DNA of 53,628 nucleotides, taken from contig CAJFQC010000014.1 in the NCBI GenBank assembly GCA_904418845.1, forward strand, positions 1-53,628, in the 5' to 3' direction. The notes under the pieces are model-generated. The model did no database searches, was not told where the DNA came from, and saw only the letters and a list, made by a program, of their open reading frames with translations. This document shows, one piece after another, positions 24,328 through 51,350 of the stretch (the first letter of the stretch is position 1; each line of letters starts with the position of its first letter). The DNA comes from an uncultured Ruminococcus sp. (GTDB lineage Bacteria; Bacillota; Clostridia; Lachnospirales; Lachnospiraceae). The translations under genes and the position numbers were made by a program.

Positions 24328-26862
24328 TCAACTGATGACTTCTTTGTACGGGGCATGTTTTGCCAGCGCCTCTGTCATCTTAGCCATCTCGGACAGATCT
24401 CCCATGAGGATCACTCCTGACAGCCTGTTGTTGAGGAAGTAATACTTCCTGTACTGCCCTTTACCCATATCACGGTACTCTACAGTCTTGTAAAGCAGGT
24501 CAGGGTTCTTCCCATTGTCTCCTGCCGCGAACAGCGCGGTATTCATACCGTGGAAGGTGAGAGCAGCCGCCACGGGCTCATATTCCAGCTCTTCTCCCGC
24601 CGCGTTCGCTCCTGCGATCCGCCCCTGCTCCACAGCCTCCGGCCAGATCGCGTAGTTGACGCCTTCATACTCCGCGCAGTCTCCGCACGCATAGACGCCG
24701 GGCACGCTCGTCTCCATCTTCGGGCTGACCTTCACCGCGCGGCCAGTATCAAGTCCTATCTCCTGCGCCAGCGCCGTGTTCGCGCGCACGCCTGCGGATA
24801 CGATGACCATCTCTGCCTGAATTACCGTCCCGTCCGCGAGCCTCACGCCTGTCACATGGTCTTCACCTTCAATAGCCTCCACCGAGACTCCTGTATGAAT
24901 TTCCACTCCATTTTTCTTCGCTGTTTCCTTAAGGATCTCTGCCGATCCTGCGTCAAGCTGACGTCCCATAAGTACCGGAGCCACCTCTAATACCTGCACA
25001 TTGAGACCTGCTTTTTTAAGTTCCCACGCCGCTTCAAGTCCCAGAACTCCGCCGCCGATCACGACTGCGTTTGACGATGTCTCCATCAGCTTCTCTACCT
25101 TCTCAACATCGGAGAGTCTGCGGATCGCCACGACTTCGGGAAGCCTGCTGCCTTCCATGGGCGGGATAAAGCACTCGCTTCCCAGAGCATAGATCAGTCT
25201 TGTAAAGTGTACCTTCTCCCCGCTCTCTAGCAGAACCTCCTTCTCTTTCATATCAATGGACTGTATCTGTTTTCCAAGCATCTGATACACTTTGTTCTCT
25301 TCGTACCAGTCCTGACTCTCGACAGCAATCTGCTCCGCGCTTAATCCTGCCACGATAGATTTCGTCAGCATGGGCCGGTTATACGCCAGATACGGCTCGT
25401 TAGAGATCATGATGACAGCGCCTGTCTTATCCCTCTCTCTTATCGCTTTCGCCGCGTTAAAGCCGGCGGCTCCGTTCCCAAGGATCACATAATACTCCTG
25501 CGTATTGTTAATGTAACCGCTTTCTTCTACGTCAACCGGCACGAAGTTTTCTTTTCCGACTCCACACACCGGACAGATTTCCATGGAAGAATCAAAGATC
25601 TCGCCGCAGACAAGGCATTTCACAAGACTCTTCGCGCCTTTCTTCTTCGGCTTCACCGGCTCTTTATTCTGGACGATGCATCCGAACTGATAGCCGTATT
25701 CATATGCGCCGACAAGATCTGCCTCGGACGGTTTGAAACGTACCCGAAAGCCTTCATGCACCTTCATCCTGAGTTGTTTTAAACGCTCTATGATGTGGGG
25801 TACACCTTCGCCGCTCCAGCCATAACTTCCGAACGCCCCGGCATATTTCCCGCCATGTGTTCCCGGGAACATGTTAAGAGTCAGTTCCCAGACAGGCCTT
25901 AACGCCTCTCCTACAATGGTCGGCGTTCCCAGCAGGATACCGTCTGCAAAGAGAAGTTCTTCATTCACCTTTGCTGCGTCCGCCTCGACCATATCATAAG
26001 AGCGCACATCTATATCGCCGCTGTCCTTTACCCCCTCTGCGATCTTTTCCGCCAGAGATTTGGTATATCCGTACGCACTTACATAAGGGATGATGACCGT
26101 CTTTTTCGGGTTCGGATTGACCACCGTGGACCATTCTCTGTACTGCTTCATTGCAGACTTGATGCGGTCTCCCACAAGCACCGGTCCGTGTCCGGTACAA
26201 ACCATGGAGATATCCATATCTTCCACCCGATCCAGGGCCTTGAGCATAAACGGCTTGAACGGCCCGATAATGCAATCATAGTAATACTTGAGCGCACTCT
26301 GATAGTCCGCCTCGTTTTTGATCTCTGTGGACAGAATTTCCGGCAGACAATAATGCGCACCGAAGGAATCACAGGTGACAAGGATCTGCTCTTCCTCGAT
26401 AAACGTATACATCGTATCCGGCCAGTGCAGGTTCGGCACAAACATGAAACGCAGCGTTTTGTTTCCTATGGTCATTTTCTGCTCATCCCTTGCCGCAATC
26501 CCCACAAAGTCACGATTCACGATCTCCTTGAGGAAGCCAAGAGCGCAACCCGTAGCGATGATCTTCATCTGCGGGCTTAAGTCAAGGAGCATCTCCACGC
26601 TTCCCGCATGGTCCGGCTCCGTGTGGCTCACCACCAGGTAGTCGATCTTATGCACATCGATGACATCTTTTAATTTCTCCAGATACTCATCGAAGAATTT
26701 CGCTTTCGCGGTCTCGAAGAGCACCGTTTTATCTCCCGCTTTCATCACATAGGAATTATACGTTGTTCCAAACTCTGTATACATTATGATGTCAAATACT
26801 CTCAGCTTGTCGTCGATAATGCCTGTCCAGTAAAAATTGTCTCTTAATTTGATACTTTTCAT
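24328..26862 (-). CDS. Flavodiiron protein fused to rubredoxin-like and NADH:rubredoxin oxidoreductase domains
   Basis: This oxygen- or NO-reducing enzyme contains its whole electron chain in 844 residues. Start at 26862 (MKSIKLRDNFYW) with AAAGGAGG upstream. Residues about 1-250 form the diiron beta-lactamase-like domain with ligands H80, E82, D84 and H85 in HTEPDH, plus later HW, D and H ligands. A flavodoxin domain (about 255-400) has the FMN loop SAYGYTKS. A short rubredoxin-like module (CLVCGEIFD and CPVCGVG) comes next. The rest is a pyridine-nucleotide-disulfide FAD domain with LGNGAAGFNAA and GGGVLGLEAAWEL. This order matches the FDP-Rd-NROR fusions known in Clostridia. It detoxifies O2 or NO at the expense of NADH (inference). 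nth lies 57 bases upstream. Confidence 0.93.
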   Translation of the reverse strand: MKSIKLRDNFYWTGIIDDKLRVFDIIMYTEFGTTYNSYVMKAGDKTVLFETAKAKFFDEYLEKLKDVIDVHKIDYLVVSHTEPDHAGSVEMLLDLSPQMKIIATGCALGFLKEIVNRDFVGIAARDEQKMTIGNKTLRFMFVPNLHWPDTMYTFIEEEQILVTCDSFGAHYCLPEILSTEIKNEADYQSALKYYYDCIIGPFKPFMLKALDRVEDMDISMVCTGHGPVLVGDRIKSAMKQYREWSTVVNPNPKKTVIIPYVSAYGYTKSLAEKIAEGVKDSGDIDVRSYDMVEADAAKVNEELLFADGILLGTPTIVGEALRPVWELTLNMFPGTHGGKYAGAFGSYGWSGEGVPHIIERLKQLRMKVHEGFRVRFKPSEADLVGAYEYGYQFGCIVQNKEPVKPKKKGAKSLVKCLVCGEIFDSSMEICPVCGVGKENFVPVDVEESGYINNTQEYYVILGNGAAGFNAAKAIRERDKTGAVIMISNEPYLAYNRPMLTKSIVAGLSAEQIAVESQDWYEENKVYQMLGKQIQSIDMKEKEVLLESGEKVHFTRLIYALGSECFIPPMEGSRLPEVVAIRRLSDVEKVEKLMETSSNAVVIGGGVLGLEAAWELKKAGLNVQVLEVAPVLMGRQLDAGSAEILKETAKKNGVEIHTGVSVEAIEGEDHVTGVRLADGTVIQAEMVIVSAGVRANTALAQEIGLDTGRAVKVSPKMETSVPGVYACGDCAEYEGVNYAIWPEAVEQGRIAGANAAGEELEYEPVAAALTFHGMNTALFAAGDNGKNPDLLYKTVEYRDMGKGQYRKYYFLNNRLSGVILMGDLSEMAKMTEALAKHAPYKEVIS

Positions 26863-26918
26863 ATCTGCCTCCTTTTTCTTTTTTATGAAAAACTCCTCCG
26901 CTCGGAAGAAACTCTTCT

Positions 26919-27575
26919 TCACTTTTTGGATTTCTGTTGTTTTACACCGTTCTTTTTACAGACTTCCGAAAGACAGCACTTCCCGCAGTATGGTTCTGTC
27001 CGTGCCGTGCACACGTCTCTTCCGTGGTACACGAGCCTGTGGCAGAAGTCGCTGCCCTCCTCCGGCGGGATGATCTTCCAGAGCGCCATCTCCACCTTTT
27101 TCGGCTCTTTGATATTGTCTACAAGCCCGATTCTGTTCACAAGACGGATACAGTGGGTGTCTGTCACGATAGCGGGTTTGCCGAACACGTCCCCCATGAT
27201 CAGGTTCGCGCTTTTGCGTCCCACACCCGGCAACTTTAAGAGTGCGTCAAAATCCTCCGGCACTTTGCCGCCATACTCGTCCCGCAGTATTTTCATGCAC
27301 GCACTGATATCTCTTGCCTTGCTGCGCCCGAGCCCGCAGGGACGGACGATCTCTTCGATATCATCTACATCTGCCGCCGCGAGGGCATTTACATCCGGGT
27401 ATTTTTCATAGAGTCCTTCCACGACCACATTAACCCTGGCGTCCGTACACTGTGCCGCCAGCCGCACGCTGACCAAAAGCTTCCACGCCTGGTCATAATC
27501 CAGAGTACAGTCTGCGTCCGGATATTCCTTTTTGAGCCGTTCGATTACTTCCAAAGCCCGCTGCTTCTTTGTCAT
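26919..27575 (-). CDS. nth: Endonuclease III
   Basis: This base-excision repair glycosylase/AP lyase removes oxidised pyrimidines. It has 218 residues from the ATG at 27575 (MTKKQRALEVIERLK). The helix-hairpin-helix motif LPGVGRKSANLIMGDVFG contains the catalytic Lys, and VTDTHCIRLVNR contains the catalytic Asp. The C terminus carries the 4Fe-4S ligands in CTARTEPYCGKCCLSEVC. AAAGGAA precedes the start. The gene lies upstream of the oxygen-reducing flavodiiron enzyme, a plausible oxidative-stress pairing. Confidence 0.95.
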   Translation of the reverse strand: MTKKQRALEVIERLKKEYPDADCTLDYDQAWKLLVSVRLAAQCTDARVNVVVEGLYEKYPDVNALAAADVDDIEEIVRPCGLGRSKARDISACMKILRDEYGGKVPEDFDALLKLPGVGRKSANLIMGDVFGKPAIVTDTHCIRLVNRIGLVDNIKEPKKVEMALWKIIPPEEGSDFCHRLVYHGRDVCTARTEPYCGKCCLSEVCKKNGVKQQKSKK

Positions 27576-29918: not shown

Positions 29919-31292
29919 CTACGCCTGACCCTGCTGACTTTTTTCCCATTTTCGCATTATATAGATATAATAGGGCACCAGAGGAATCAGCGCTGCGATC
30001 CATGCCGCGGGATCTGAAAGACATACGCCCACGAAACTCGCGCGCCCCGCCACCAGCATGACGATGACCGTCCTTGCCGCCAGTTCAAAGACCCCGCCCA
30101 GCATAGGCACCAGGCCATACCCCATTCCCTGAAGGGTATTCCGATAGATGAAGATGCTTCCAAGGAATGGATAGCACCAGAATACCGTGTGGAAATACAG
30201 GACAGATACATTGACCACCTCTGTCTCCGATGGGCTGACGAAGAGCCATGTCATATATTTTCCGCCAAAGTACACCAGCACCATCGTAAAGATGCTCCAC
30301 GCGAAGATCATAATCTGTGTGTACTTCACGCCTAATCGAACCCTGTCCGCCTTTCCTGCTCCCCGGTTCTGCCCTACATAGGTGGCGATCGTTGCTCCAA
30401 ACGCAGTAAATACCGTAAGTATAATATTCTGAAGTTTGCCCGCCGCCGAGAATCCCGCCATATACACTTCCCCGTAAACATTGACTGCGCCCTGCACGAT
30501 AATCGTCCCGATGGCTGTGATAGAGAACTGCAGACCCATAGGGATACCCAGCGCTACCAGACGCCCGAAGCTGTGGAAAGAAATGTTGAAGTCCTCTTTC
30601 TTCAAGTGCAGGATAGGATATTTCTTCATAATATACACAAGGCAAAGCAGTGCGGATATGCCCTGAGCGATAACCGTTGCATACGCACATCCCTCTACTC
30701 CCATGTCAAAACTGATGATAAATACGATGTCAAGCGCCACATTGATGACCGCGGATATTATAAGGAAATACAGCGGAGACTTGGAATCTCCCAGAGCTCT
30801 CAAAAATGACGCCAATGCATTATATGCCGCTGTTACAATAAGCCCTGCGTAAATAATAGCCATATAGGCTTTCACATCAGGCAAAAGTCCTTCTGAATAA
30901 TTCATCAACCGCAGGATCGGCTCATTGACAATCAAGAATCCTGCCGTCATGGCAATAGCAAAGGCTGCACAAAGATAAATGGACATAGCAACATAATGGC
31001 GCATCCTGTCATATTGTTTAGCTCCAAACCATTGCGATACGAGGATCGCAAAGCCGCTGCTGAGCCCATTCAGCCAGCCGGTCACAAAGAACATCAAAGA
31101 ACCTGTACTGCCGATGGCTGCCAAAGCGTCTACTCCAATAAATTGTCCTGCTACGATAGAATCCGCGATATTATAGAACTGCTGAAATATATTTCCCAGA
31201 CACATGGGGATCATAAAACGAATGATCAGCTTAACCGGGCTTCCCACCGTCATATCATTTGCCTTTTGTGCACGTACTATTTCATTGCTCAT
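29919..31292 (-). CDS. MATE-family efflux transporter
   Basis: This multidrug-and-toxin-extrusion type antiporter has 457 residues and about 12 hydrophobic helices in two similar halves. Hallmark blocks are SPVKLIIRFMIPMCLGNIFQQFYNIADSIV, split by the first helix, GIDALAAIG-like text (VDALAAIGSTGSL) and GIPMGLQFSITAIGTIIVQ in the second half. It is the last gene after the dlt-like operon, starting 80 bases after the SGNH gene. AAAGGGG precedes the start. Whether it exports something made by that operon or is a bystander cannot be told. Confidence 0.93.
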   Translation of the reverse strand: MSNEIVRAQKANDMTVGSPVKLIIRFMIPMCLGNIFQQFYNIADSIVAGQFIGVDALAAIGSTGSLMFFVTGWLNGLSSGFAILVSQWFGAKQYDRMRHYVAMSIYLCAAFAIAMTAGFLIVNEPILRLMNYSEGLLPDVKAYMAIIYAGLIVTAAYNALASFLRALGDSKSPLYFLIISAVINVALDIVFIISFDMGVEGCAYATVIAQGISALLCLVYIMKKYPILHLKKEDFNISFHSFGRLVALGIPMGLQFSITAIGTIIVQGAVNVYGEVYMAGFSAAGKLQNIILTVFTAFGATIATYVGQNRGAGKADRVRLGVKYTQIMIFAWSIFTMVLVYFGGKYMTWLFVSPSETEVVNVSVLYFHTVFWCYPFLGSIFIYRNTLQGMGYGLVPMLGGVFELAARTVIVMLVAGRASFVGVCLSDPAAWIAALIPLVPYYIYIMRKWEKSQQGQA

Positions 31293-31372
31293 ATATGTAA
31301 CACCCCTTTACAGCTCAGTTGCTTAGTATACCACAACCCGTAAATGAATGTATATATTTATTTGGCATTTTT

Positions 31373-32365
31373 TTATCTGACAGCAGCCGACATTATTTTT
31401 TGCTCAGATGCAATTTTTTCTCTGTACTCTTCCGCCTCCTTATCCCATGCAGAGTACGCGTCATCTCCTCTGTGATCCGAAAGTCCATATGTCTCCTTTA
31501 AGTATGCGCCCATATAACGGCTGATCTTCTGGGCTCCTGTCAGATTGGGATGATCCCCGCCATCCATAGTATCTACAGCCCAGTTGATACCAAGTTTTTC
31601 AAGCTCCAGATTCAGATCTACATAGTCCAGATGTTTTTCTTTCGCGTATTCTTCAAGAGCCCGGTGTTTCTGATCATTATAGTTTACTGGGGAGGGTGTG
31701 CTGACCAGCATAAGCTGCGCGCCGTTTTCCCCGCACAATTCTATGATTTTTTCCATATACATCCTGACTCCGTCGGATATATCTCTCTTCTTGTCATTTT
31801 TAGTCATGTAGTCCTTCCCTGTATACGCCATAATTGCAGAGCGGATCATAAATCCTTTATAAGTCCGTTCTCCATACTTTGATCCCAGAAGCATGGGCTT
31901 CCAGATATTGTGAAATCGGAACACAGGAAAACAGGAGCCCAGCTTTTCCGTGATCATCTGCTGCATCCCGCTCAGATCCCCACTATCCCGGAATATGGTG
32001 TTGGTCTCCAGTACAACCAGTTTGGGGCTTTGATTCTCAAACGCTGCCTCAAGCATAGAGTAAGTCTCATTAATCATCTGTCCCGACTGACAGCCCGCAT
32101 AGGAGGTGACGCCCTGCTCCTTCCATATCTGAAGCGGCGAAAACGACGTGTATCCCAGGCTGTCTCCCAAGAACAGAACATCAATCATATCCGCCTCTTC
32201 ATTTTGAAGCTTTATAAGAGTTTTATTCCGTTCTTGTACCAGACCGTCATTCTTCTTTGCTATCTCCATAACCTGCCAGGACATCCCCGCAAGAATGCCT
32301 GTCAGTATCAGTAGAAAAAGCAGCGGCCTTCCGATTCCTCTGAATATCTCCTTAAAATCCCGCAT
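31373..32365 (-). CDS. SGNH-hydrolase-like extracytoplasmic protein (DltD-like role)
   Basis: This 330-residue protein has one N-terminal membrane anchor (about 13-33) and an outside SGNH/GDSL-type domain. The motif VLFLGDSLGYTSFSP has a candidate nucleophile Ser69, and DTMDGGDHPNLTG has D271 and H272 as the other catalytic candidates. VLETNTIF near 119 fits a middle block. Its place after an MBOAT acyltransferase, with a 14-base overlap, is that of DltD, the membrane esterase-like protein of D-alanylation. It may finish transfer of an acyl group to a cell-surface polymer, or proofread it (inference). It is not close enough to DltD to use the name. Confidence 0.8.
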   Translation of the reverse strand: MRDFKEIFRGIGRPLLFLLILTGILAGMSWQVMEIAKKNDGLVQERNKTLIKLQNEEADMIDVLFLGDSLGYTSFSPLQIWKEQGVTSYAGCQSGQMINETYSMLEAAFENQSPKLVVLETNTIFRDSGDLSGMQQMITEKLGSCFPVFRFHNIWKPMLLGSKYGERTYKGFMIRSAIMAYTGKDYMTKNDKKRDISDGVRMYMEKIIELCGENGAQLMLVSTPSPVNYNDQKHRALEEYAKEKHLDYVDLNLELEKLGINWAVDTMDGGDHPNLTGAQKISRYMGAYLKETYGLSDHRGDDAYSAWDKEAEEYREKIASEQKIMSAAVR

Positions 32366-33941
32366 AAATCAGATCCACCTGCTGGTAACCAATGCCATAT
32401 GCTCCGAAGATCACGACCGAGAAGATCAAAGCATAGTACAGAACCCACCTGGCGGGCGTCCACATTCTTGCGAGCGGCGCGTCACCCAGCAGTCTCCTTT
32501 CTTTTATCACTCCCACGACGGCGACTGTCAGGCACCCCGTCGCTATTACCAGATAATCCCCCTGATCCAGCCCGAAACCAAGCAGCGTCTCATCCCAAAA
32601 TATATGCAGATCAAAATCCCGGAACATACTCCGGAACATATGGAACCCGGCGCGAAGTCCATCCGCACGGAAAAACAACTCTCCCACGAAGATGATGACC
32701 CACGTCTTTAATATCCGGGTGATTTTCCAGTAAAATGCCTCCTCATCAATGTGACAGGCCGCCAGTATCTTATTTCTGGCCGGCTCCGCTGCCACACCGA
32801 AAAGAAGGATTGTAAAATAATACATCCCATAAAACACATAGTTCCACCCAGTGCCATGCCACAGTCCGTTGCAGATCCACACCGGAAAGAGTGCGATCGC
32901 AGATACTCCCACTTTTGTGAGATGTTTTCCTACATGTCTCTTTCCAAACCTATTCCACCGTTTTACTATAGATGACACAGACATAGGATAGAAAATGTAT
33001 GTCTTAAGCCACACTCCCAAAGTAATATGCCACCTCCGCCAAAACTCGGCCGCATTCCCGGAAGCAAAGGGCTGGCGGAAATTCTCAGGCAGAGTCACTC
33101 CGAAAAGTTTTCCGCTGCCAATGACAATATCCATACCTCCGGAAAACTCCATATAAAGCTGTACTGTATACGCTATTGCCGCCACAGCTATAACTGCTCC
33201 GCTGTATTTAGCATAATGGCCGAACACCTCACAAACTAACACATACAGCCTGTCCGCGACGAGCATCTTTTTAAAAAGCCCCCACACGATACGAACAGCA
33301 CCCGATGTAAGATTCTCTCTTTTCAGAGAACGACATTCCCACAACTGATCTGCTGTCTGAGAGTACATGCTGATTGGTCCTTCCATGATCTGTGGAAAAA
33401 ATGCAAGGAATAATGCCAGCTTCCCAAGATGTTTTTCCGCCGGAATCTTCTCCCAGTACACATCCGCCATATACCCGATGGCCTGCAGTGTGTAGAAAGA
33501 AATTCCGATAGGAAGGAGCAGCTGTTTTGCCTGAAAAGCGAAATTCAAACCTGTATACCCCAGGACAACATTCGCATTTTGCGCAAAGAAGTTATAGTAT
33601 TTCAGATAAGCCAGCACTGCCATAAGCATAAAAATTCCAAAGGCAAGGACCAGCCTTTCTTTTTTCTTGTATCTGTTTTTGACTGCTTTCCGCTCATTCT
33701 TTTCTGTCCGCTCTGCCTCTCCCGCGCAGCAGCATTTCAGCCACGAAAGCCACACGCCGATATAATGCGTGAATAATGTAGTTCCTATAAGAAATAAAAG
33801 CAGCTTGCCGCTGAAGGACCAGAAAAAGATATATCCCGCCCCCAACAGAACAGCCCATTTAAACTTCTGCGGTGTCAACTGATAGACCAGCAGCACCACA
33901 GGAAGGAACACGAACAGATACATTGCTGTATGGTAAGCCAT
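32352..33941 (-). CDS. MBOAT-family O-acyltransferase (DltB/AlgI-like)
   Basis: This is a multi-helix membrane protein of 529 residues. N-terminal MYLFVFLPVVLLVYQ, the block GISFYTLQAIGYMADVYW near 150, FPQIMEGPISMYSQ, FWRRWHITLGVWLKTYIFYP near 306 and the catalytic-His block ICNGLWHGTGWNYVFYG near 358 all match membrane-bound O-acyltransferases. Such enzymes take an acyl or aminoacyl group from a carrier inside and pass it to a hydroxyl outside. Its direct neighbour is the carrier protein gene (3-base gap), which supports an acyl-carrier donor as in DltB. AGGAG precedes the start. Confidence 0.93.
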   Translation of the reverse strand: MAYHTAMYLFVFLPVVLLVYQLTPQKFKWAVLLGAGYIFFWSFSGKLLLFLIGTTLFTHYIGVWLSWLKCCCAGEAERTEKNERKAVKNRYKKKERLVLAFGIFMLMAVLAYLKYYNFFAQNANVVLGYTGLNFAFQAKQLLLPIGISFYTLQAIGYMADVYWEKIPAEKHLGKLALFLAFFPQIMEGPISMYSQTADQLWECRSLKRENLTSGAVRIVWGLFKKMLVADRLYVLVCEVFGHYAKYSGAVIAVAAIAYTVQLYMEFSGGMDIVIGSGKLFGVTLPENFRQPFASGNAAEFWRRWHITLGVWLKTYIFYPMSVSSIVKRWNRFGKRHVGKHLTKVGVSAIALFPVWICNGLWHGTGWNYVFYGMYYFTILLFGVAAEPARNKILAACHIDEEAFYWKITRILKTWVIIFVGELFFRADGLRAGFHMFRSMFRDFDLHIFWDETLLGFGLDQGDYLVIATGCLTVAVVGVIKERRLLGDAPLARMWTPARWVLYYALIFSVVIFGAYGIGYQQVDLIYAGF

Positions 33942-33944
33942 TGT

Positions 33945-34172
33945 CTAACGCTCCTGAAGTCTTGTGATCATCCGGTACATCGCCGCGACAGAATTGAAAT
34001 TTGCCGGTACCATCTCAGCCGCCTTGATCTCAATGTCGAACGCCGTTTCTAATTCAGAGATCAAAGTAATGATCCCAAACGAATCCAGGAGGTGGTCATC
34101 AATGAGCTTCTGCTCCTTTTCCCATGCAATACCGTCGTCAATCTCATTTAATATCATCAGTAAAGTTTCCAT
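33945..34172 (-). CDS. Acyl/aminoacyl carrier protein (DltC-like)
   Basis: This 75-residue four-helix carrier protein has Ser31 in LLDSFGIITLISELE as the phosphopantetheine attachment site. The start at 34172 (METLLMILNE) has GGAAGG upstream and overlaps the decarboxylase gene by 29 bases; the frame continues upstream without support. Size and motif fit both DltC and freestanding carriers of amino-acid tailoring pathways such as BtrI. The neighbours are an adenylation enzyme, a PLP decarboxylase and an MBOAT protein, so it most likely carries an amino acid or its decarboxylated product. Confidence 0.92.
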   Translation of the reverse strand: METLLMILNEIDDGIAWEKEQKLIDDHLLDSFGIITLISELETAFDIEIKAAEMVPANFNSVAAMYRMITRLQER

Positions 34173-35361
34173 TGTTTCTTGCCTTCCTTTCCATATTCCA
34201 TCTATAAGTCTGCTGTTCCTCCCGCACCGGTCTCCATCCCGACTCCCGGCTGTAAATGACAACCCTTGGAAGTTCATGGCTTAGGAACAGAGCCATTCCT
34301 TCCATTGCCGAGTACGCTCCTGCCCGGTCGAAAATGAACACATCCCCTTTTTGAAGTCCACGAACGGGCGCATCCTTTATCAATACATCATTAACCGTAC
34401 ATAATGAACCGCACACGGTCCACTCTCTGACCTCTCCTGACTCACGCTCCGGGCTCACGCGAAAGACCGGGCGGTACATTCCCCGGATCTGTCCGTCATA
34501 ACTGATCTGGTGGCTTCCTCCGTCAACAATGCAGTAATTCGTCCCATTGCTCTTCTTTACATCCAGAGCCGTCGTAAGATAATGCCCGCAGGTGGCTGCG
34601 AAGGCCCGCCCCATCTCCAGCATGACACTGCCGTTCCATCTCATAGAAGCAAGAGCGTCCCCTATCTCTTTGGTGTCACACACCGTCATGTCCTCCTGAC
34701 CTTCAAAATAGGAAACCGCAAGCCCCGGCCCATACTCCAGTTCCGACAGGGGATGCCCCGTCTCCGCTTCTGTCTTTTGAAGAAAATCATCCAGAAATTC
34801 CAGTTCTTCTCTGATCTTCCCTGCGTTTTTCTTCTGTGTTCCCGAAAAATAATGGATTCCTTTTATACTGACAAATTCCCACCGTTCCGCACCTTTCAAG
34901 ATTCTATATATGGAGTCAGCGTCCATGCCGAACTGATTGCCGCTTGTCAGTCTCAGATAGATATTTACCTTCTGTCTGTTTGCGTCGCTCCATCCCACAA
35001 TAAGCCGGAACTGTTCCGGAGACTCAACCGTATATGTGCATCTTCCTCCGCAATATCCAAGGATCTCACGGATATCCTCTTCTTTTTTCAATACACCGGA
35101 TATCAAAAGTTTCTCCGGCGGGATATTAAGCTCCCGGCAGATACAGAACTCTCCCATAGAGCATACTTCGACCCGGTCGAGCCTTTCTGCCATCTGCGCT
35201 GTGATAAATGGGTTTGCTTTCATCGCGAAACACAGTCCCACACCGTCGCCCAGCAGTTCTCTGTAAATTCTCACCGTGGCTGCCGCCTGATCCACATCAT
35301 ACACGTACATCGGCGTTCCGTACTTAAGTATCCCGTATTCCAGCGTCTTTCTGTCCATCAT
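34144..35361 (-). CDS. Fold-type III PLP-dependent amino acid decarboxylase (Orn/DAP decarboxylase family)
   Basis: This alanine-racemase-fold decarboxylase has 405 residues. The PLP lysine is K48 in CFAMKANPF, followed by VEVCSMGEF near 67. The phosphate-binding region LEYGPGLAVSYFEG lies near 208. EMGRAFAATCGHYLTTALDVK replaces the usual EPGR start, and DGGSHQ follows. GSLCTVNDVL near 324 holds the Cys and Asp of the dimer active site in the unusual form CTVND, and DRAGAYSAMEG is also present. Relatives act on diaminopimelate, ornithine, arginine or carboxynorspermidine, and BtrK acts on a carrier-bound glutamyl group. Its place between an adenylation gene (ATGA overlap) and a carrier gene makes a carrier-linked or carrier-destined amino acid the likely substrate (inference). 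Confidence 0.88.
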   Translation of the reverse strand: MMDRKTLEYGILKYGTPMYVYDVDQAAATVRIYRELLGDGVGLCFAMKANPFITAQMAERLDRVEVCSMGEFCICRELNIPPEKLLISGVLKKEEDIREILGYCGGRCTYTVESPEQFRLIVGWSDANRQKVNIYLRLTSGNQFGMDADSIYRILKGAERWEFVSIKGIHYFSGTQKKNAGKIREELEFLDDFLQKTEAETGHPLSELEYGPGLAVSYFEGQEDMTVCDTKEIGDALASMRWNGSVMLEMGRAFAATCGHYLTTALDVKKSNGTNYCIVDGGSHQISYDGQIRGMYRPVFRVSPERESGEVREWTVCGSLCTVNDVLIKDAPVRGLQKGDVFIFDRAGAYSAMEGMALFLSHELPRVVIYSRESGWRPVREEQQTYRWNMERKARNNGNFTDDIK

Positions 35362-36938
35362 CCTCTCACCTCCAGTCGCCGCCTGAGATGCTCCCGGTCA
35401 GTCTTACCGTTTTTATTAAGGGGCATTGCCTGTACCTGTATGATCTTGTGCGGCACCATGTATACCGGAACTCTTTTCTTCATATCTTTTCTGATCTCCT
35501 CCGGGTCTGCCCTGCCAAGATAGAACGCCGCAAGCCGGCTCCGCTTCTCATCCAGCACACAGCAGCTTCGCTCCACCCCCTCCACTCTGTCCATCGCCCG
35601 TTCAATCTCCTCCATCTCGATCCGGTGACCCATGTGTTTAATCTGAAAATCCTTCCGCCCCGAAAAGCAGAGTTCTCCGTCCGCGTCAAAATATCCCAGA
35701 TCCCCTGTCCTGTAGTACCTCTTTGACACTCCGCCACGACTGTAGTATACAAACCTCTTTGACGTTTCCTCAGGCTGATTATAATATCCGTCTGCGAGGG
35801 ATTCTCCTGCCACGCAGATCTCCCCTGTCTTTCCGGTTTCCGTAACTTCCCTGTCCGCCTCATCCAGAAGAAACACCTCCCTTCCAGGGAATGGTCTGCC
35901 GACAGGAATCTTCTCCCCGTCTTTGAAGATTCGCTGTACCGGATAATAGGTACAATTACATGTAATCTCAGAAGGCCCGTACAGGTTCACAAACTCGGCC
36001 TCCGGCAATGCCTCCTGCCAGAGTCTCAACTGCCTGGCCGGCATGACCTCGCCGCTGAAAAATATTTTTTTCACTGCTTCCGGTCTTCGGTATCTCAGCC
36101 CTTTCAGAGAAGAGACGAGGGTCAGCGCGGACACGGCCCAGATCAGGACTGTTGTCTGCTTCTCACAGAGATAATCCAGAAGAACCGGGGGCACGGAAAA
36201 CATCTTCTTCGGTATGAGCACCAGTGCCGCCCCGGTCATAACGCTCGTATAGATATCCTTCACAGACACATCGAAGTCAAAGGGCGCCTGATTGCCGATC
36301 CTCTCCTCTGCCGTAAACCCGAATGTATCGATAAAATGCTTTATGAAATCAATCACCGCTCTGTGGCTTACTACAACCCCTTTTGGAACTCCCGTTGAGC
36401 CCGATGTAAATATCCCGTACAGAATGTCCGTGTCACGACTTTTCTCTCTCACGGCTTCAAGGGCTGCATTGTCAATACCACCGTCAACATTCCCGACAAA
36501 TCCGCCGCTGTTCCCGCCCGCAGGTTCACCACTGCTTCCGGGAACATTTGTCCCTAATATATTTTCCAAGAAGAATCTCTCTCCCTGATATTCCGCCTCA
36601 TCCAGTATCGGGTTGTACTCCCGTTCTGTAACCACAAGCCCGGCGCCCAATGACTTAAGAATCTGTTTCACCCTTGCCGGCGGCTGCGCCGGGTCTACAT
36701 TTACATAAAAGCAGCCCGCGTACACAGCGCCGAACATCGCGGCTAATGTGCAGGAGCTTTTTTCCGCCAGAACAACCACCGGTTTCCCCCTGCCTGTCCT
36801 TTTGCAGAATTCAGTCCCCAGTCTTCTTGACAGCTTTGTCAGTCCGCTCCACGTCATAGTTGTCTTTCCGTCGTCAACTGCTGTGCGCCCGGGATGATCC
36901 TGAGCTGTTTTCTCCAAATAATCCAGTATGTTTTTCAT
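35358..36938 (-). CDS. Amino acid adenylating enzyme (DltA/NRPS A-domain type)
   Basis: This ANL-family enzyme of 526 residues activates a carboxylate with ATP and loads it on a carrier protein. Start at 36938 (MKNILDYLEK) with AAAGGAC upstream. Core motifs are FTSGSTGVPKGVVVSH (177-192), NLYGPSEIT (318-326), YRTGDLGYFDADGEL, GRKDFQIKHMGHRIEMEEIE and the catalytic Lys in PLNKNGKTDR at the end. D223 in PFDFDVSVKDIY sits where amino-acid A domains bind the substrate amino group, so an amino acid is likely. A Gly/Ser/Asn-rich insertion lies at about 131-154. It heads the operon and shares ATGA with the decarboxylase. It looks like DltA, but the context argues for a substrate other than, or in addition to, D-alanine. 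Confidence 0.9.
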   Translation of the reverse strand: MKNILDYLEKTAQDHPGRTAVDDGKTTMTWSGLTKLSRRLGTEFCKRTGRGKPVVVLAEKSSCTLAAMFGAVYAGCFYVNVDPAQPPARVKQILKSLGAGLVVTEREYNPILDEAEYQGERFFLENILGTNVPGSSGEPAGGNSGGFVGNVDGGIDNAALEAVREKSRDTDILYGIFTSGSTGVPKGVVVSHRAVIDFIKHFIDTFGFTAEERIGNQAPFDFDVSVKDIYTSVMTGAALVLIPKKMFSVPPVLLDYLCEKQTTVLIWAVSALTLVSSLKGLRYRRPEAVKKIFFSGEVMPARQLRLWQEALPEAEFVNLYGPSEITCNCTYYPVQRIFKDGEKIPVGRPFPGREVFLLDEADREVTETGKTGEICVAGESLADGYYNQPEETSKRFVYYSRGGVSKRYYRTGDLGYFDADGELCFSGRKDFQIKHMGHRIEMEEIERAMDRVEGVERSCCVLDEKRSRLAAFYLGRADPEEIRKDMKKRVPVYMVPHKIIQVQAMPLNKNGKTDREHLRRRLEVRG

Positions 36939-37083
36939 GCTCTGTCCTTTCGTGTATATTTCAAAAGTGACCACGCCAGGTTCGTTTTGATGGAGCAATT
37001 ATCCCAGACAGTTCTTAATATTTTTTATATGAAAATATAAAAAAAGCGAAAAATTGTTCAGAAACCAAACTAAATGAACAAAA

Positions 37084-37105
37084 AGAGTTCCTATTTCGGA
37101 ACTCT
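37084..37105 (-). terminator. Terminator of the alcohol dehydrogenase gene
   Basis: On the minus strand AGAGTTCC pairs with GGAACTCT around six bases and is followed by TTTTTG. It isolates the dehydrogenase from the dlt-like operon that starts at 36938. Confidence 0.9.
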
Positions 37106-37155
37106 CAAATCTTTTCTTTCATTTTTAAATCTATGCCGCACAAATTTTAGATTCC

Positions 37156-38376
37156 TCACTTCATAATAGAGCGGATAAATTTTCTCAATTCTTTCCTGCT
37201 CCATATGACTGGTACCGGGTACAGTGGATTCGCTTCTTTATCTGCCCACTCTGCGATCTGATCTACGTCCTCCTCTTTTATCATATCTGGATACTTGGGC
37301 AACCCCGCCTTTTCTTTTGTCTCCTCTATCCAGCAGAGGAATGCTTCCGCCTTAGACTCATCTGTCTCGTCTACAGAACAGATTCCACACACATCACAAA
37401 GGCGTGCAAGCCTTTCATAAACTGCCGGACCGTAAGCTCTCATCACATGAGGCAAAAGGATGGCCATAGCAAGGCTGTGTCCTGTACCGTAAAGCCCTCC
37501 CAACGTATGTCCGACAGCGTGAACATATCCCACTGACCCCCTTGAGAACGCCCGTCCCGCGTAAAATGCCGCCCTCTGCATATTTCCCCTGGCCTCAATA
37601 TCTGAATCGTCCCGGCAGACACGATACAAGTTGTCATAGATCAGCTTTACGGCTTTGCAGCACAGCCCATCTTCCAAAGCGGTATTATATATATGATTGG
37701 TGTATGCTTCTACGGCATGGCACAGCGCATCCATTCCTGCTGCCGCCGTCATTTCCGGCGGAAGTCCTGCGGTCAGCTCTGGGTCCAGCACTGCAAATCT
37801 GGGCATCATACACAGATCATTGATGGAAGCCTTATGGTGGGCGGCCGTATCTGTAATGACCGCCGCGATAGTAGTCTCGGAACCTGTTCCAGCTGTGGTC
37901 GGAACCGCAAAAATAACCGGAAGGGGTCTTAGCACCTTGAAAAGCCCCTGAAGCTGTCCAACTGATTTCTTCGGCCGAGCGATCCGCGCACCGATCGCTT
38001 TGGCGCAATCCATGGGGGAGCCGCCGCCAAATGCGATCATGCAGCCACATCCAGTGTCCTGATATAAGCGAACACCCTCCTCCACATTCTCCTCCGTAGG
38101 ATTAACCGCCGTCTTATCATACACTACATACTCAAGGCCCGCTTCTTCCATCGCCTTAAGCATACCGTCCAGACGATGGAGTCTCATCAGCTTTGGTCCC
38201 GTCACAACAAGCACTTTTTTTAAACCACACTTCTTCACCACACCGGGCAGACGTTTTACCTTCCCTGACCCACTCATAACTTTCGGCACGCGCCATGGCA
38301 GTGCGTACATCCCTGCTTTGACAGCATACTGAATCCCTCTGTATGCTGTCTTCTTTATATTCCATTTCGTCTCCAT
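37156..38376 (-). CDS. Iron-containing alcohol dehydrogenase
   Basis: This group III dehydrogenase has 406 residues. The NAD(P)-binding part holds VVTGPKLMRLH and GGGSPMDCAKAIGARIARP near 116. The metal ligands lie in MDALCHAVEAYTNH near 214 and HTLGGLYGTGHSLAMAILLPH near 286, with the preceding Asp in FAVLDPELTAGLPP. Substrate class is open: the family covers 1,3-propanediol, butanol, lactaldehyde and glycerol enzymes. It is monocistronic, with GGGGAGAGG at the start and a strong terminator after it. Divergent upstream there is a small 33-residue gene and then a WYL regulator. Confidence 0.94.
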   Translation of the reverse strand: METKWNIKKTAYRGIQYAVKAGMYALPWRVPKVMSGSGKVKRLPGVVKKCGLKKVLVVTGPKLMRLHRLDGMLKAMEEAGLEYVVYDKTAVNPTEENVEEGVRLYQDTGCGCMIAFGGGSPMDCAKAIGARIARPKKSVGQLQGLFKVLRPLPVIFAVPTTAGTGSETTIAAVITDTAAHHKASINDLCMMPRFAVLDPELTAGLPPEMTAAAGMDALCHAVEAYTNHIYNTALEDGLCCKAVKLIYDNLYRVCRDDSDIEARGNMQRAAFYAGRAFSRGSVGYVHAVGHTLGGLYGTGHSLAMAILLPHVMRAYGPAVYERLARLCDVCGICSVDETDESKAEAFLCWIEETKEKAGLPKYPDMIKEEDVDQIAEWADKEANPLYPVPVIWSRKELRKFIRSIMK

Positions 38377-43662: not shown

Positions 43663-44244
43663 ATGAACGAGAAAACGATAAATTTCACATTATCAACATC
43701 AACTGATAATGATGTAAAAAAATATGCTCGATACTCTAATTTACAACGTCCATCTTGTATTCGTTTTTTCATATCAGAGCAAATCATTTTGTTTAAATTA
43801 CAAAATAAAACATTTTTAGAACAATGGAATACTAGACGCTCTCAAAAACTAGATGTGGAAGATGGTGAACATTACAAAAAATTTTCATTTAAAATTCCAG
43901 ATAATATGTATCAAGATTTAATGGATATGAAAGAACATCTCAATGTATCACTTAATGAGCTAATTGTAAATCTGGTTAGAAATGAATTAGATAATATCTT
44001 CGCAGAGTATGACAAATCATTTGCTACTCTATTAAAGGACATATCTGCCGAAAATTATAGGAGCAATATAAGTTTATCAAATGTTATTAAGCAAGATTTA
44101 GTAAACATTTCCGAAGAAATGGGTATATCGCTTAACACACTGATAACACATATCCTAATAAAGTATCTAAGAGAACATTATACTGATTTTTTTAATGAAA
44201 CTTATATGAGTGCATCTGGAAAAATATATCATGGATTATGGTAA
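43663..44244 (+). CDS. Ribbon-helix-helix-like protein, likely RM regulator
   Basis: This 193-residue protein starts at 43663 (MNEKTINFTLST) with GGAGAG upstream. Three stretches look like ribbon-helix-helix units, a short strand followed by two helices: about 3-38 (TINFTLSTSTDNDVKKYARY), about 71-108 (KFSFKIPDNMYQDLMDMKEH then VSLNELIVNLVRN), and about 134-170 (SLSNVIKQDLVNISEEMGIS then LNTLITHILIKYL). The assignment is from pattern only. The gene ends 14 bases before the restriction-modification gene on the same strand. A role in timing RM expression through the inverted repeat at its own promoter is inferred. Confidence 0.6.
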   Translation: MNEKTINFTLSTSTDNDVKKYARYSNLQRPSCIRFFISEQIILFKLQNKTFLEQWNTRRSQKLDVEDGEHYKKFSFKIPDNMYQDLMDMKEHLNVSLNELIVNLVRNELDNIFAEYDKSFATLLKDISAENYRSNISLSNVIKQDLVNISEEMGISLNTLITHILIKYLREHYTDFFNETYMSASGKIYHGLW

Positions 44245-44258
44245 AGGAGGCAATCAAA

Positions 44259-46283
44259 ATGGCAAAAAGCATAGAAGAACAAGTTGAAGATTGGGGAAAA
44301 AAACAGCTGGGAAAGACAAAATATTATACAAAAACAGAAAGTATAAATCACGAAATTGAAACTGCATTAAAAATAGCACCTTCAAAAACTGGTGGTGCAG
44401 GTGCAAATTATCCAGATATTAAAATGTTTATTGAAACCAAGACCCTACGCAAAATCCCAGTTATGATTGAAGTTAAAGGAACAAAAGGAAGCCTTATAAA
44501 ACAAAATACAGATGGGGAAATTGATAATAAGAAAAAAGATGGTACTCCTAATTACACCAATATCAATAAATATGCTGTAAACGGTGCGGTGCATTATGCA
44601 AAGGCTATTATTGAACACTCCAAAAGCTACAAACAGGTGGTCGCTATTGGTTTAAATGGCTATGATGAAGCAGGAACAAGAATTTATGAAATTGAAGCAT
44701 ATTATGTATCAGCTGAAAATTACTCTATTCCAAAACGTATAAGCGCCTATACTGACTTATCATTCTTATTGTCAAAGAATCAAGAAAAATTTGTTGAACA
44801 GATTGACAAAATCGGTTTAACAGATGAAGAGCTCGAAGCTAAAGCTAAAGAATTTGAAAATGAAATAGAAAGCAAATTAAAAAAACTGAATCAAGTTATG
44901 CAAGATGATTTAAAGATTTCAGTAGGATCAAGAGTAGAACTTGTTACGGGCATGATAATGGCATCTCTTGGAGTAGACGGAAAAGTTGCACCCCTTGAAA
45001 TTACTGACTTAAAAGGAGAAGGCAGTAATAAGAGTAACGACGGAACAGTTATAATAAATAAAATTGATTCATTTCTTGAAGAAAAAAATCTTCCGCAAGA
45101 GAAAAAAGAAATGATAATAAATGACCTTTCCAGAGTTTTTATTTATTCAGACCTTTGGAAAGCCGAAAATGGAGAAAGCAAATTAAAAACTGTCTATACA
45201 AGCGTGAAAAATGACATTATGCCTATTTTTACATCAGCAAGACATCTGGATTTTACTGGAAGACTTTTCAATGTCCTTAACGCATGGGTTGACATTCCAG
45301 ATAGTGATAAAAATGATGTTGTCTTAACACCACGATATGTTACAGAACTTATGGCAAAACTTGCACAAGTAAACAAAGATAGTTATGTATGGGATTATGC
45401 AGTTGGTTCAGCAGGTTTTCTTATTTCATCAATGAAATTGATGATTAAGGACGCTCAGGAAAGAATAAAAAGTCCTAAGGAGCTAAACGAAAAGATTGTA
45501 AAAATCAAATGCGAACAGCTTCTTGGTATCGAAAAACGTTCTGATATTTATTTGCTAGCAGTGCTTAATATGATTTTGATGGGTGATGGTTCTTCAAATA
45601 TTATTCATAAAGACAGTTTGACAGAATATAGCGGTAACTATGAACAAGGCGAGCTAAATGGAAAGAAATACCCTGCTAATGTATTCTTATTAAATCCACC
45701 ATATTCCGCACAAGGAAAAGGATTCATATTTGTCGAGAAAGCACTTAAACGCATGAACAATGGACGTGCTGTTATTCTTATACAAGAAAATGCTGGAAGT
45801 GGTAACGGTTTACCTTATACCAAAAACATATTAGAAAACAATACTCTTATTGCAAGTATCCATATGTCAGATATTTTTCATGGTAAAGCTGGTGTTCAAA
45901 CAGCAATATATGTATTTAATGTAGGTGTTCCGCATGACATCAAGCAACTTGTAAAATTTATTGATTTTACCAATGATGGGTATACAAGACAAAATCGAAA
46001 AAAATCAAGTCAAGAAACCAATTTAAAAAATACCGACCATGCCTTAGAACGATATGAAGAAATTGTAAATCTTGTGTTATATGGAAAATCTTATCTACAC
46101 TATTTTACTGAGGAGGAGTACACCGAAGATACTATAACTCTTAATGGGAATGACTGGACATACAAACAACATCAAAAAATAGAAACCATACCGACCGAAA
46201 ATGATTTTAGAGATGTTGTAAAAGAGTACCTAAGTTGGAAAGTATCAATGATTATGAAGGGGGATATGTCAAGTGAAAACTAA
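44259..46283 (+). CDS. BcgI-like restriction-modification subunit (nuclease + adenine methyltransferase)
   Basis: This bifunctional protein has 674 residues, close to the known size of BcgI A subunits. Start at 44259 (MAKSIEEQVEDWG) with AAAGGAGG upstream. The N-terminal PD-(D/E)xK nuclease has D53 in YPDIK and E71/K73 in MIEVKGTKG. A helical region leads to an N6-adenine methyltransferase with the SAM motif DYAVGSAGFL near residue 378 and the catalytic NPPYSAQGKGF near 478. One subunit thus cuts and methylates, with DNA recognition supplied by the next gene (11-base overlap). That matches type IIB systems, which cut on both sides of a split site. It is AT-rich compared with the left of the window, so acquired. 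Confidence 0.87.
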   Translation: MAKSIEEQVEDWGKKQLGKTKYYTKTESINHEIETALKIAPSKTGGAGANYPDIKMFIETKTLRKIPVMIEVKGTKGSLIKQNTDGEIDNKKKDGTPNYTNINKYAVNGAVHYAKAIIEHSKSYKQVVAIGLNGYDEAGTRIYEIEAYYVSAENYSIPKRISAYTDLSFLLSKNQEKFVEQIDKIGLTDEELEAKAKEFENEIESKLKKLNQVMQDDLKISVGSRVELVTGMIMASLGVDGKVAPLEITDLKGEGSNKSNDGTVIINKIDSFLEEKNLPQEKKEMIINDLSRVFIYSDLWKAENGESKLKTVYTSVKNDIMPIFTSARHLDFTGRLFNVLNAWVDIPDSDKNDVVLTPRYVTELMAKLAQVNKDSYVWDYAVGSAGFLISSMKLMIKDAQERIKSPKELNEKIVKIKCEQLLGIEKRSDIYLLAVLNMILMGDGSSNIIHKDSLTEYSGNYEQGELNGKKYPANVFLLNPPYSAQGKGFIFVEKALKRMNNGRAVILIQENAGSGNGLPYTKNILENNTLIASIHMSDIFHGKAGVQTAIYVFNVGVPHDIKQLVKFIDFTNDGYTRQNRKKSSQETNLKNTDHALERYEEIVNLVLYGKSYLHYFTEEEYTEDTITLNGNDWTYKQHQKIETIPTENDFRDVVKEYLSWKVSMIMKGDMSSEN

Positions 46284-47391
46284 ACAATTTAAAATTTCCG
46301 AAGTGTTACAATGGCAACCCCAAAAGGAAATTGACCCATTAAAAATCAACGAGCTTACTGTAGATGCTAATTATTCTTATCCTTTTTACGGACAAGCCAC
46401 TTTAAATAATGGGATTATTTCGTTTGAAACCCTTACTCCCAAAGTATTGAATAACACTGATGGTAAACCAACCATTCTAATTCATTCCAACAACCAAAAT
46501 ATTGTTTATTTAGAGACCCCTTTTTATTTAAAAGATGGACATGGAGCAACAAGTGTATTACAATCTGAAAAACTTAATGAAAAGAATGCCCTTTATATTA
46601 TTACATGCATTAAGAAAGTAATCACAAAAAAATTTGCTTATAACGATAAAGCCACTAAAATAGCATTAAAAAATACATACATTGAATTACCAATTACAGA
46701 TAACGAAGAAATTTATTACCAATACATGGAGGAGCGTATACGCGAACTAGAAGAGGAGCGTATACGTGAGCTCTCCGCTTACTTAACAGCAAGCGGATTA
46801 AATAATTATAGGTTAACTATCACAGAAAAAAACTTACTAACTAACTTTATTAGTGGTAATATAACTTTTCACTCTTTTAAAATTACAGATATATTTACAG
46901 TCAAAAATACTCACAGTATTTTAAAAAATGAAGTAGTACTCAACAGCGGTTCTTCACCTTATGTCACAGCAAGCGAGGGAAAAAACTCTATTTTATCCTA
47001 CATTTCATACAATAAAGAACTTATTGAAGAAGGTAATTCAATAATGATAGGTGGAAAAACTCTTGTTATTACCTATCAACCTAACGATTATTATTCTAAC
47101 GATAGTCATAATCTTGCTCTATATATTCATGACAAACGAGGACGAACTGAAAAAGCACAATTATTCATGGTTACTGCTCTATATAAAAGTTTAAAACCGC
47201 TTTATACATGGGGCGATTCTATATCAAAAAAGAAAATTCAGAATGATTATGTTTCATTACCTGTAGATTACAATAATAACTTAGATTTTAATACGATGGA
47301 ACAACTAATTACTATTCAAGAAAAACTTGCTATCAAAAGTATTGTTAAATGGAAAGATAAAATAATAAACACTCCAAAGAAATGTATATAA
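46273..47391 (+). CDS. Type I/IIB specificity (S) subunit
   Basis: This DNA-recognition subunit has 372 residues and starts with GTG at 46273, with AAGGGGG upstream. Two target-recognition domains are visible: about 5-145 (FKISEVLQW... FYGQATLNNGIISF, ending with YIELP) and about 195-372 (FKITDIFTV... SPYVTASEGKNSI, ending with YVSLPV). A charged helix, EERIRELEEERIREL, joins them. Each half would read one half of a split DNA site, with the helix setting the gap. Size and pairing fit BcgI B. A terminator at 47393-47433 closes the operon. Confidence 0.85.
   Translation: MKTKQFKISEVLQWQPQKEIDPLKINELTVDANYSYPFYGQATLNNGIISFETLTPKVLNNTDGKPTILIHSNNQNIVYLETPFYLKDGHGATSVLQSEKLNEKNALYIITCIKKVITKKFAYNDKATKIALKNTYIELPITDNEEIYYQYMEERIRELEEERIRELSAYLTASGLNNYRLTITEKNLLTNFISGNITFHSFKITDIFTVKNTHSILKNEVVLNSGSSPYVTASEGKNSILSYISYNKELIEEGNSIMIGGKTLVITYQPNDYYSNDSHNLALYIHDKRGRTEKAQLFMVTALYKSLKPLYTWGDSISKKKIQNDYVSLPVDYNNNLDFNTMEQLITIQEKLAIKSIVKWKDKIINTPKKCI
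46729..46773 (+). repeat. 24-base tandem repeat in the S gene
   Basis: GAGGAGCGTATACGCGAACT at 46729 recurs at 46753 with two changes, giving a 24-base period and about 1.9 copies. It encodes EERIRELE twice in the inter-domain helix (about residues 153-168). Length change here would keep the frame. Confidence 0.85.
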
Positions 47392-51295: not shown

Positions 51296-51316
51296 ATTTT
51301 CCTCCTGTTTAAAAGA

Positions 51317-51340
51317 GCTGTGAGCAAATCCGCTCACAGC
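51317..51340 (-). terminator. Terminator-like hairpin between xis and int
   Basis: On the minus strand GCTGTGAGC pairs with GCTCACAGC around GGATTT and is followed by TCTTTTAAAC, then the int ribosome site. It could reduce read-through from xis into int. Confidence 0.75.
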
Positions 51341-51350
51341 CCTGCTTACG

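Follow-up and report, generated by a model that had tools for sequence, protein, structure and literature searches.

A conserved five-gene unit of the Dlt kind with a built-in decarboxylase in Lachnospiraceae

This analysis concerns a run of five minus-strand genes (positions 31373-36938) in a 53,628-nt stretch of DNA, hereafter the window, from contig CAJFQC010000014.1 of the uncultured Ruminococcus sp. assembly GCA_904418845.1 (2.40 Mb in 51 contigs, 95% complete). The genes encode a carrier-protein ligase, a fold-III pyridoxal phosphate (PLP) decarboxylase, a carrier protein, an MBOAT acyltransferase and an SGNH protein. They form a conserved, linked unit which is distinct from Dlt and from LysA by curated models, specificity pocket and substrate-binding motif. 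We class the unit as a variant of the Dlt kind; the wider family to which it belongs merits a separate description. We consider it rather probable that it is a surface-acylation machine making its own acyl group, in which an acidic amino acid would be loaded on the carrier, decarboxylated there and esterified to a surface polymer.

Conservation and linkage of the five genes

Related loci were collected by scanning species genomes with an alignment of the decarboxylase. The best 80 of the 334 confirmed loci were searched with iterative profiles that started from the window proteins, with clustering and a check by eye. All five genes were contiguous in 70 of the 80 (an end gene being cut short in a few), and the remaining 10 ran into a contig end. 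Among the 70 complete loci, 58 had the gene order of the window, six had this order plus one or two extra SGNH matches (those in L054 being the two fragments of a single split gene), and one carried a LysA-like gene in front of the unit. The order was rearranged in five complete loci and also in L083, one of those at a contig end, which makes six of 80. Because the linkage outlives rearrangement, it is strong evidence for a joint function of the five genes. The loci were fetched with the decarboxylase as bait and are therefore silent on how often the other genes occur without it.

The gene order and tight spacing described in the original prediction were borne out by the coordinates, the gene families met or came near their Pfam cut-offs except for GDSL, which stayed well below its own (Table 1), and the co-occurrence of the five families that it proposed to look for was recovered in the 70 loci above. 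The ligase and decarboxylase genes overlap by 4 bases, the decarboxylase and carrier genes by 29 and the MBOAT and SGNH genes by 14; the 3 bases between the carrier and MBOAT genes are the largest gap in the unit. A MATE exporter had been proposed as the next gene of the operon. Such a gene is indeed present 80 bases from the unit, with a promoter-like site in between (promoter-like sites near the MATE gene and the unit are close to chance, with 16 found vs 12.0 expected in shuffles). It was left out of the unit because its homologues occur in only three of the 80 loci, at varying places. The other window neighbours matched among these loci were an alcohol dehydrogenase and a WYL protein, each in a single locus. 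Upstream, a terminator-like hairpin separates the unit from a gene for an iron-containing alcohol dehydrogenase.

Table 1. Features of the five-gene unit and its flanks in the window
Feature	Position	Strand	Details
Carrier-protein ligase, AMP-forming, 526 aa	35358..36938	-	AMP-binding above Pfam cut-off
Fold-III PLP decarboxylase, BtrK-like, 405 aa	34144..35361	-	PF02784 (Orn_Arg_deC_N) and PF00278 (Orn_DAP_Arg_deC) above cut-off
Carrier protein, 75 aa from ATG at 34172	33945..34172	-	Phosphopantetheine Ser in LDSFG
MBOAT acyltransferase, 529 aa	32352..33941	-	PF03062; catalytic His362; C-terminal extension beyond DltB
Fused FXYXXF-like acyl-shuttle motif LIYAGF, Tyr526	32355..32372	-	C-terminal hexapeptide of the MBOAT
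SGNH-fold transferase candidate, membrane-anchored, 330 aa	31373..32365	-	Ser69, Asp271, His272
MATE gene	29919-31292		Sixth gene in the original prediction
Terminator-like hairpin, upstream of the unit	37083..37106	-	Consensus scan only

Within the genome collection, the named organisms closest among those carrying the unit are Lachnospiraceae, e.g. Claveliimonas, Schaedlerella, Extibacter, Blautia and Mediterraneibacter. Wider genome counts refer to the decarboxylase and not to the whole unit. At E values up to 1e-60 its family was found in 15 of 61 genomes of a set of relatives (the own genome included; one of the 15, G027, holds a distant copy only) and, within the order, in 48 of 392 genomes, representing 27 of 173 genera. 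At E values up to 1e-50 it occurred in four of 398 genomes drawn across the phylum, again including the own one. The protein database yielded 3636 relatives at E values up to 1e-10, surely including more distant decarboxylases; where relatives bear a name in their source, it is alanine racemase, decarboxylase or diaminopimelate decarboxylase family protein.

Difference from classic dlt

All Dlt equivalog models stayed below their cut-offs: TIGR01734 (DltA) reached 285 of 560 bits, TIGR04091 (DltB) 134 of 375 and TIGR01688 (DltC) 20 of 52. No DltX was seen on the coding strand when stop-to-stop segments of 30-90 aa were scanned in 31001-37600; two loose pattern matches both lay on the opposite strand, and neither had FXYXXF. 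These scores, the lack of a visible DltX and a different specificity pocket set the unit apart from a classic dlt operon. The core of the original prediction, a dlt-like unit with a decarboxylase that goes beyond classic dlt, agrees with the scores and the pocket, and with BtrK as the nearest solved relative of the decarboxylase.

A DltA above the TIGR01734 cut-off was found in none of the 61 relatives, compared to two of 14 control genomes. Among 40 entries of decarboxylase-bearing genomes (at most 38 distinct genomes, as two pairs give the same places), three also had a ligase above the NF003417 DltA cut-off, and one of these ligases shares its locus, L123, with a decarboxylase trio.

The decarboxylase and the ligase pocket

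The best solved relatives of the decarboxylase are two BtrK entries (E 2e-29), followed by diaminopimelate (DAP) decarboxylases (E 8.6e-23), and a stand-alone carrier gene lies beside the BtrK-like gene in the window and in its kin. The catalytic residues are conserved, with the PLP lysine Lys48 and the motif Cys321-Thr-x-x-Asp325 (CTVND). In the DAP decarboxylase motif, a Glu contacts the distal amine. This motif, CESGD, is tied to substrate binding in the part of PMC6986272 consulted. It reads CENND in the LysA-like copy of the genome and in nine LysA-like copies near related loci, whereas all 87 operon decarboxylase rows scoring at least 450 begin with CT (83) or CS (4), at least one gene being entered twice. 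The 27 rows below 440 comprise 16 with CT or CS, the nine LysA-like copies and two with CN.

The lysA model TIGR01048 gave the decarboxylase of the unit 135 bits, against a cut-off of 298. The only other PF02784 member of the genome is LysA-like, with TIGR01048 as its best model (273 bits, likewise below the cut-off). The idea that the decarboxylase might be the sole housekeeping copy does not hold, since the genome has this separate gene. The comparisons support the view that the enzyme is not the housekeeping LysA, its nearest solved relative being BtrK. BtrK converts the glutamyl-S-carrier into the gamma-aminobutyric acid (GABA)-S-carrier (PMC7857480), VinO turns the 3-methylaspartyl-carrier, after loading by VinN, into the 3-aminoisobutyryl-carrier, and FlvN accepts aspartate (both PMC11284099).

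Ten specificity positions of the ligase were placed by hand alignment, in GrsA numbering, and gave the pocket D235, V236, K239, S278, F299, S301, L322, C330, N331 and K517 (DVKSFSLCNK). In a set of 78 ligases (the window's and 77 of 79 matches, those of sufficient length and score), the codes were DVKSMSLCNK in 52, DVKSLSLCNK in 20 and single variants in six, including the window; D235, K239, S301, C330, N331 and K517 were invariant. By the same mapping, the DltA-type ligase of L123, which passes NF003417, has the pocket DLMSLCTVAK. Compared to it, the unit keeps D235, S278 and K517 and has Lys for Met239, Ser for Cys301 and Asn for Ala331, while positions 236, 322 and 330 differ as well. As mapped, the pocket of the unit is small, with a base at its floor, and is not that of DltA.

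Position 239 was Lys in 92, Arg in five and Tyr in one of 98 ligases beside a decarboxylase; the ligase with Tyr matches only weakly and is of another type, and the residue is basic in the other 97. Lys was also found in six of 13 ligases without a decarboxylase beside them, and is therefore not special to decarboxylase systems. Lys239 may parallel a Lys familiar from glutamate-loading nonribosomal peptide synthetase domains. V236 and S301 of the window ligase recall beta-amino-acid domains, for which the consulted part of PMC11253843 describes bulkier residues at 236 and 301 (F231 and S299 of VinN; engineered A236V of TycA).

The carrier, the MBOAT and the SGNH protein

The carrier is DltC/AmcB-like at scores below model cut-offs and reaches 20.5 bits with PP-binding, just under the cut-off of 20.8; its phosphopantetheine Ser is invariant in 78 rows. 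The MBOAT scores 38.0 bits with PF03062 (cut-off 27) and matches DltB (6bug) at E 1.3e-19, and its catalytic His is invariant in 72 rows. The C terminus reads xxYAxF in all 71 homologues, the Tyr being present in 72 of 72 rows; in the window the first position is Leu, not Phe. According to the consulted part of PMC12148441, an FXYXXF-like C-terminal hexapeptide serves as an acyl shuttle in PatA-type MBOATs. The SGNH protein scores 21.6 bits with GDSL, well below the Pfam cut-off of 32.9, and no DltD match was obtained in NCBIfam or Pfam at E 0.01. Its predicted model has the SGNH fold, common to PatB, and the protein starts with a hydrophobic helix. Over 85 rows, Ser69 and His272 are invariant and Asp271 is kept in 84.

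A second MBOAT is encoded on the organism's own contig C2 (L001:1066-3638). It ends in FLYFRF and is followed by a 384-aa gene, no carrier was seen near it in the 3.7 kb listed, and the two genes look like an ordinary acyl-CoA-type pair.

A wider family of carrier-linked, shuttle-fused systems

Ligases of this type (alignment A2, E values up to 1e-150) occurred in 60 of the 150 Lachnospiraceae genomes scanned, each from a different genus. From 71 listed ligase places, 40 were picked by hand, all of them lower-scoring (rows 27 to 71, five skipped). Their pockets start with DAKS (15), DVKS (11), SM (6), IARS (1) or others (7). An MBOAT above 100 bits lay in 33 of the 40 stretches; 31 of these proteins end in xxYxxF or xxYxxY, and two are cut by the stretch end. 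In a tree of 60 ligases, which raised long-branch warnings, DVKS lay on one side of a branch (93/90), IARS and DAKS were each supported at 100/100, and these three with four others stood apart from the single DltA row and its company (100/99).

The following counts combine the picked places with loci fetched before. The DAKSxG pocket, which also has K239, was found in 18 loci, five of them fetched for want of a decarboxylase match. A racemase gene lay within 300 bases in 12 and a decarboxylase in none. Three of these racemases were tested and passed the cut-offs of an amino-acid racemase subfamily and of the cysteate-racemase equivalog, not that of aspartate/glutamate racemase. The DVKS pocket (23 loci and the near variant L168, 13 of the 24 fetched via the decarboxylase) was accompanied by a decarboxylase in 18 of 24 and by a racemase in none. 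Within the 40 picked places, a decarboxylase lay beside five of 11 DVKS vs none of 13 DAKSxG ligases (Fisher p 0.011).

Several arrangements were observed along the way. Racemase genes adjoin DAKSxGLGMK ligase/MBOAT/SGNH systems at L092:3963-4679, L093:249-965, L094:10002-10721 and nine more loci; these systems possibly decorate with a D-amino acid other than D-alanine. Formyltransferase-domain genes adjoin the carrier gene at L138:5422-6303 and L142:2-850, where the pocket is of the window type and no decarboxylase is adjacent; N-formylation is possible there. A GNAT gene is the other editing gene in L100 and L101. The SM-pocket ligases (L157, L162, L163, L164, L166, L171 and L096) have no Asp235, an MBOAT lies beside six of the seven, and they probably load a non-amino acyl group. 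At L158:7713-11057 the same decarboxylase forms one protein with Ig-like and transglutaminase-like domains of surface type, and a ligase/carrier/MBOAT/SGNH set lies downstream. A ligase-carrier-decarboxylase trio amid radical-SAM-like and UvrA-like ABC genes (L097:3700-6564) is possibly a small-molecule cluster, and two genera have a ligase-decarboxylase-carrier trio in a stretch that gave no match for MBOAT or SGNH (L112:6949-10170, L127:6417-9667).

It is conceivable, and we put it forward tentatively, that Lachnospirales have their own modular platform. A common carrier, shuttle-fused MBOAT and SGNH protein would be combined in it with swapped pockets and with decarboxylase, Asp/Glu/cysteate-type racemase, formyltransferase or GNAT editors, and the window version would display beta-alanine or GABA on gut commensals. 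The swapped pockets and editing enzymes, like the fused Tyr shuttle, the lack of a visible DltX and the two-component systems beside some relatives, go beyond the original prediction.

Genomic neighbourhood

Downstream genes were surveyed in the 67 loci where the sequence continues for 1.2 kb or more after the unit. An OmpR-type response regulator lay within 300 bases downstream on the same strand in 21 of them, with a histidine kinase next in all 21, and 13 further loci had a response regulator within 4 kb; none of the 67 had one within 300 bases upstream. In a few Schaedlerella-type loci the unit is followed by genes for a VTT-domain protein (7 loci), a CDP-alcohol phosphatidyltransferase (5) and a phosphatidylserine decarboxylase (5). 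Two-component and phospholipid neighbours are what would be expected of an envelope-charge regulon, to which they point indirectly.

Elsewhere in the window, N6-methylase and type I specificity-domain genes near a Tn916-type integrase (44238-47391 and 50048-51436) probably mark a mobile region. A single 864-aa frame at 24328-26922 combines flavodiiron-type, rubredoxin-like and pyridine-nucleotide oxidoreductase parts.

Proposed pathway and alternatives

In the pathway we favour, the ligase would activate an acidic amino acid and load it on the carrier, as the pocket, the precedents and the sister systems suggest; the most likely substrate is aspartate, attached via its side-chain carboxyl, and the next is glutamate. 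The PLP decarboxylase would then strip the free alpha-carboxyl on the carrier, by analogy with BtrK and VinO, and leave a beta-alanyl (or GABA) thioester. The MBOAT would bring the group through the membrane and onto the Tyr in its LIYAGF tail, a conserved motif to which we assign this chemistry. Finally, the membrane-anchored SGNH enzyme, which has the fold and the residues, would accept the group on its Ser and esterify a surface polymer with this positively charged residue, adding a primary amine. Within this pathway, a beta-alanyl group is the product we modestly prefer, GABA is a distinctly less likely second, and the remainder falls to another small group. Of the product groups suggested originally, the GABA-like one fits, in second place to beta-alanyl, while lysyl, DAP- or ornithine-derived groups are disfavoured by the change from CENND to CT/CSxxD and by the small pocket with Lys239.

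A number of observations weigh against this pathway or parts of it. The numbering of the pocket is mapped by hand, and V236 and S301 are only a hint because DltA also has larger residues there. Six decarboxylase-bearing ligases have the pocket IARSCSQASK, in which the amino-binding Asp235 is lost although the decarboxylase is kept (L115, L118, L119, L120, L123 and L159). An acidic substrate is better supported than aspartate as such, because the equivalog passed by the racemases of the DAKSxG loci is cysteate racemase. Six of the 11 picked DVKS ligases have no decarboxylase beside them (two have a formyltransferase, four neither). Three of these six genomes (G425, G916 and G915) hold a copy elsewhere, and none was found at E 1e-40 in G969 and G895 (DVKS pocket) or in G946 (DVKSLSLGNK). 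The DVKS pocket thus does not require decarboxylation. One way to account for this is transfer of the amino acid as loaded; the other is loading of an omega-amino acid from a different source. Among 20 decarboxylase places fetched across the order and phylum, an MBOAT match above 100 bits lay within the stretch in 14 and was not found in six (L112, L113, L115, L117, L123 and L127). Similarity to DltB is no proof of feeding by a carrier: with the DltB model, the genome's ordinary MBOAT reaches 150 bits, more than the 134 bits of the MBOAT in the unit. Lastly, the two-component system and phospholipid genes were not seen beside the window's own copy, and the five-gene unit contains no acceptor-polymer gene.

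The main rival, which we regard as unlikely, is that decarboxylation precedes loading: the free amino acid would be the substrate of the decarboxylase, and finished beta-alanine or GABA that of the ligase. It would suit G969, G895 and nearly G946, which have the pocket without the decarboxylase and could get beta-alanine or GABA otherwise. However, a Lys239 that is invariant in all 78 ligases would be needless for beta-alanine, BtrK works on the carrier-bound group (PMC7857480), and VinN takes 3-methylaspartate and not its decarboxylated product, so that thioester formation must come first (PMC11284099).

It is improbable that the beta-aminoacyl group serves a small molecule or lipid and that the MBOAT and SGNH proteins acylate that product. 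The trios at L112 and L127 without nearby MBOAT or SGNH genes and the one among radical-SAM and ABC genes at L097 would fit such a role, and the characterised VinN/O/L trio serves an antibiotic (PMC11284099). Nevertheless, the MBOAT and SGNH genes are joined in the unit in 70 of 80 loci, the SGNH protein combines an N-terminal hydrophobic helix with a fold shared with PatB, and the most recurrent neighbours are two-component genes, with phospholipid genes in few loci.

Less probable still is the conversion of carrier-bound meso-diaminopimelate or ornithine into a lysyl-like or diamine group. In its favour, the decarboxylase has DAP decarboxylase among its relatives (as its lysA-model score reflects), and BtrK falls in one clade with these enzymes (PMC7857480), but all 87 operon rows have Thr or Ser in place of the Glu of CExxD, which is kept in the LysA-like copies seen, and the pocket is DltA-like with a Lys at its floor. 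An ordinary D-alanine dlt locus beside a housekeeping decarboxylase by chance is hardly credible: the overall gene set is dlt-like, but the sub-cut-off DltA, DltB and DltC scores, the other pocket, the LysA-like gene elsewhere and above all the linkage in 70 of 80 loci largely contradict it.

If the favoured pathway is correct, teichoic-acid-style decoration would not be restricted to D-alanine, and common gut bacteria would display a non-protein amino acid obtained by editing on a carrier. The pathway would also provide a route to surface aminoacylation for genomes without a DltA over the cut-off, such as all 61 relatives searched, and would combine a carrier with a fused Tyr shuttle, which are separate alternatives in the consulted part of PMC12148441. 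The pocket classes make the prediction of the ligase substrate directly testable. Mass alone cannot tell beta-alanyl from alanyl esters, because beta-alanine is isobaric with D-alanine and easily mistaken for it.

Comparison with known systems

No description of this Dlt variant with a built-in decarboxylase was found. The best named model for the decarboxylase belongs to the exosortase-A-associated pair TIGR03098/TIGR03099, and the ligase is similar too. Both models, listed by NCBI as hypothetical equivalogs, are far below cut-off (194 of 592 and 151 of 478 bits, respectively).

The unit resembles BtrI/BtrK, VinL/VinN/VinO and FlvN, in which an acidic amino acid on a stand-alone carrier is decarboxylated there by a PLP enzyme, and the alanine-racemase fold of BtrK is the fold of its decarboxylase. 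Those systems serve antibiotics, whereas the trio of the unit is joined to a transmembrane MBOAT/SGNH pair. In butirosin synthesis, the loading enzyme BtrJ is of the ATP-grasp type and not AMP-forming.

With PatA/PatB-type pairs the unit shares an MBOAT that has an FXYXXF-like shuttle fused at its C terminus, and an SGNH transferase as a protein of its own. The consulted part of PMC12148441 describes such pairs as having no carrier protein and an acyl-CoA donor, whereas the unit has ligase and carrier genes inside the operon. With DltABCD/DltX it has in common the ligase/carrier/MBOAT/SGNH logic, a small pocket and, presumably, the relay from MBOAT to Tyr to SGNH protein. No DltX is seen in the unit, and it differs further by its other pocket, the shuttle fused to the MBOAT and the additional PLP decarboxylase.

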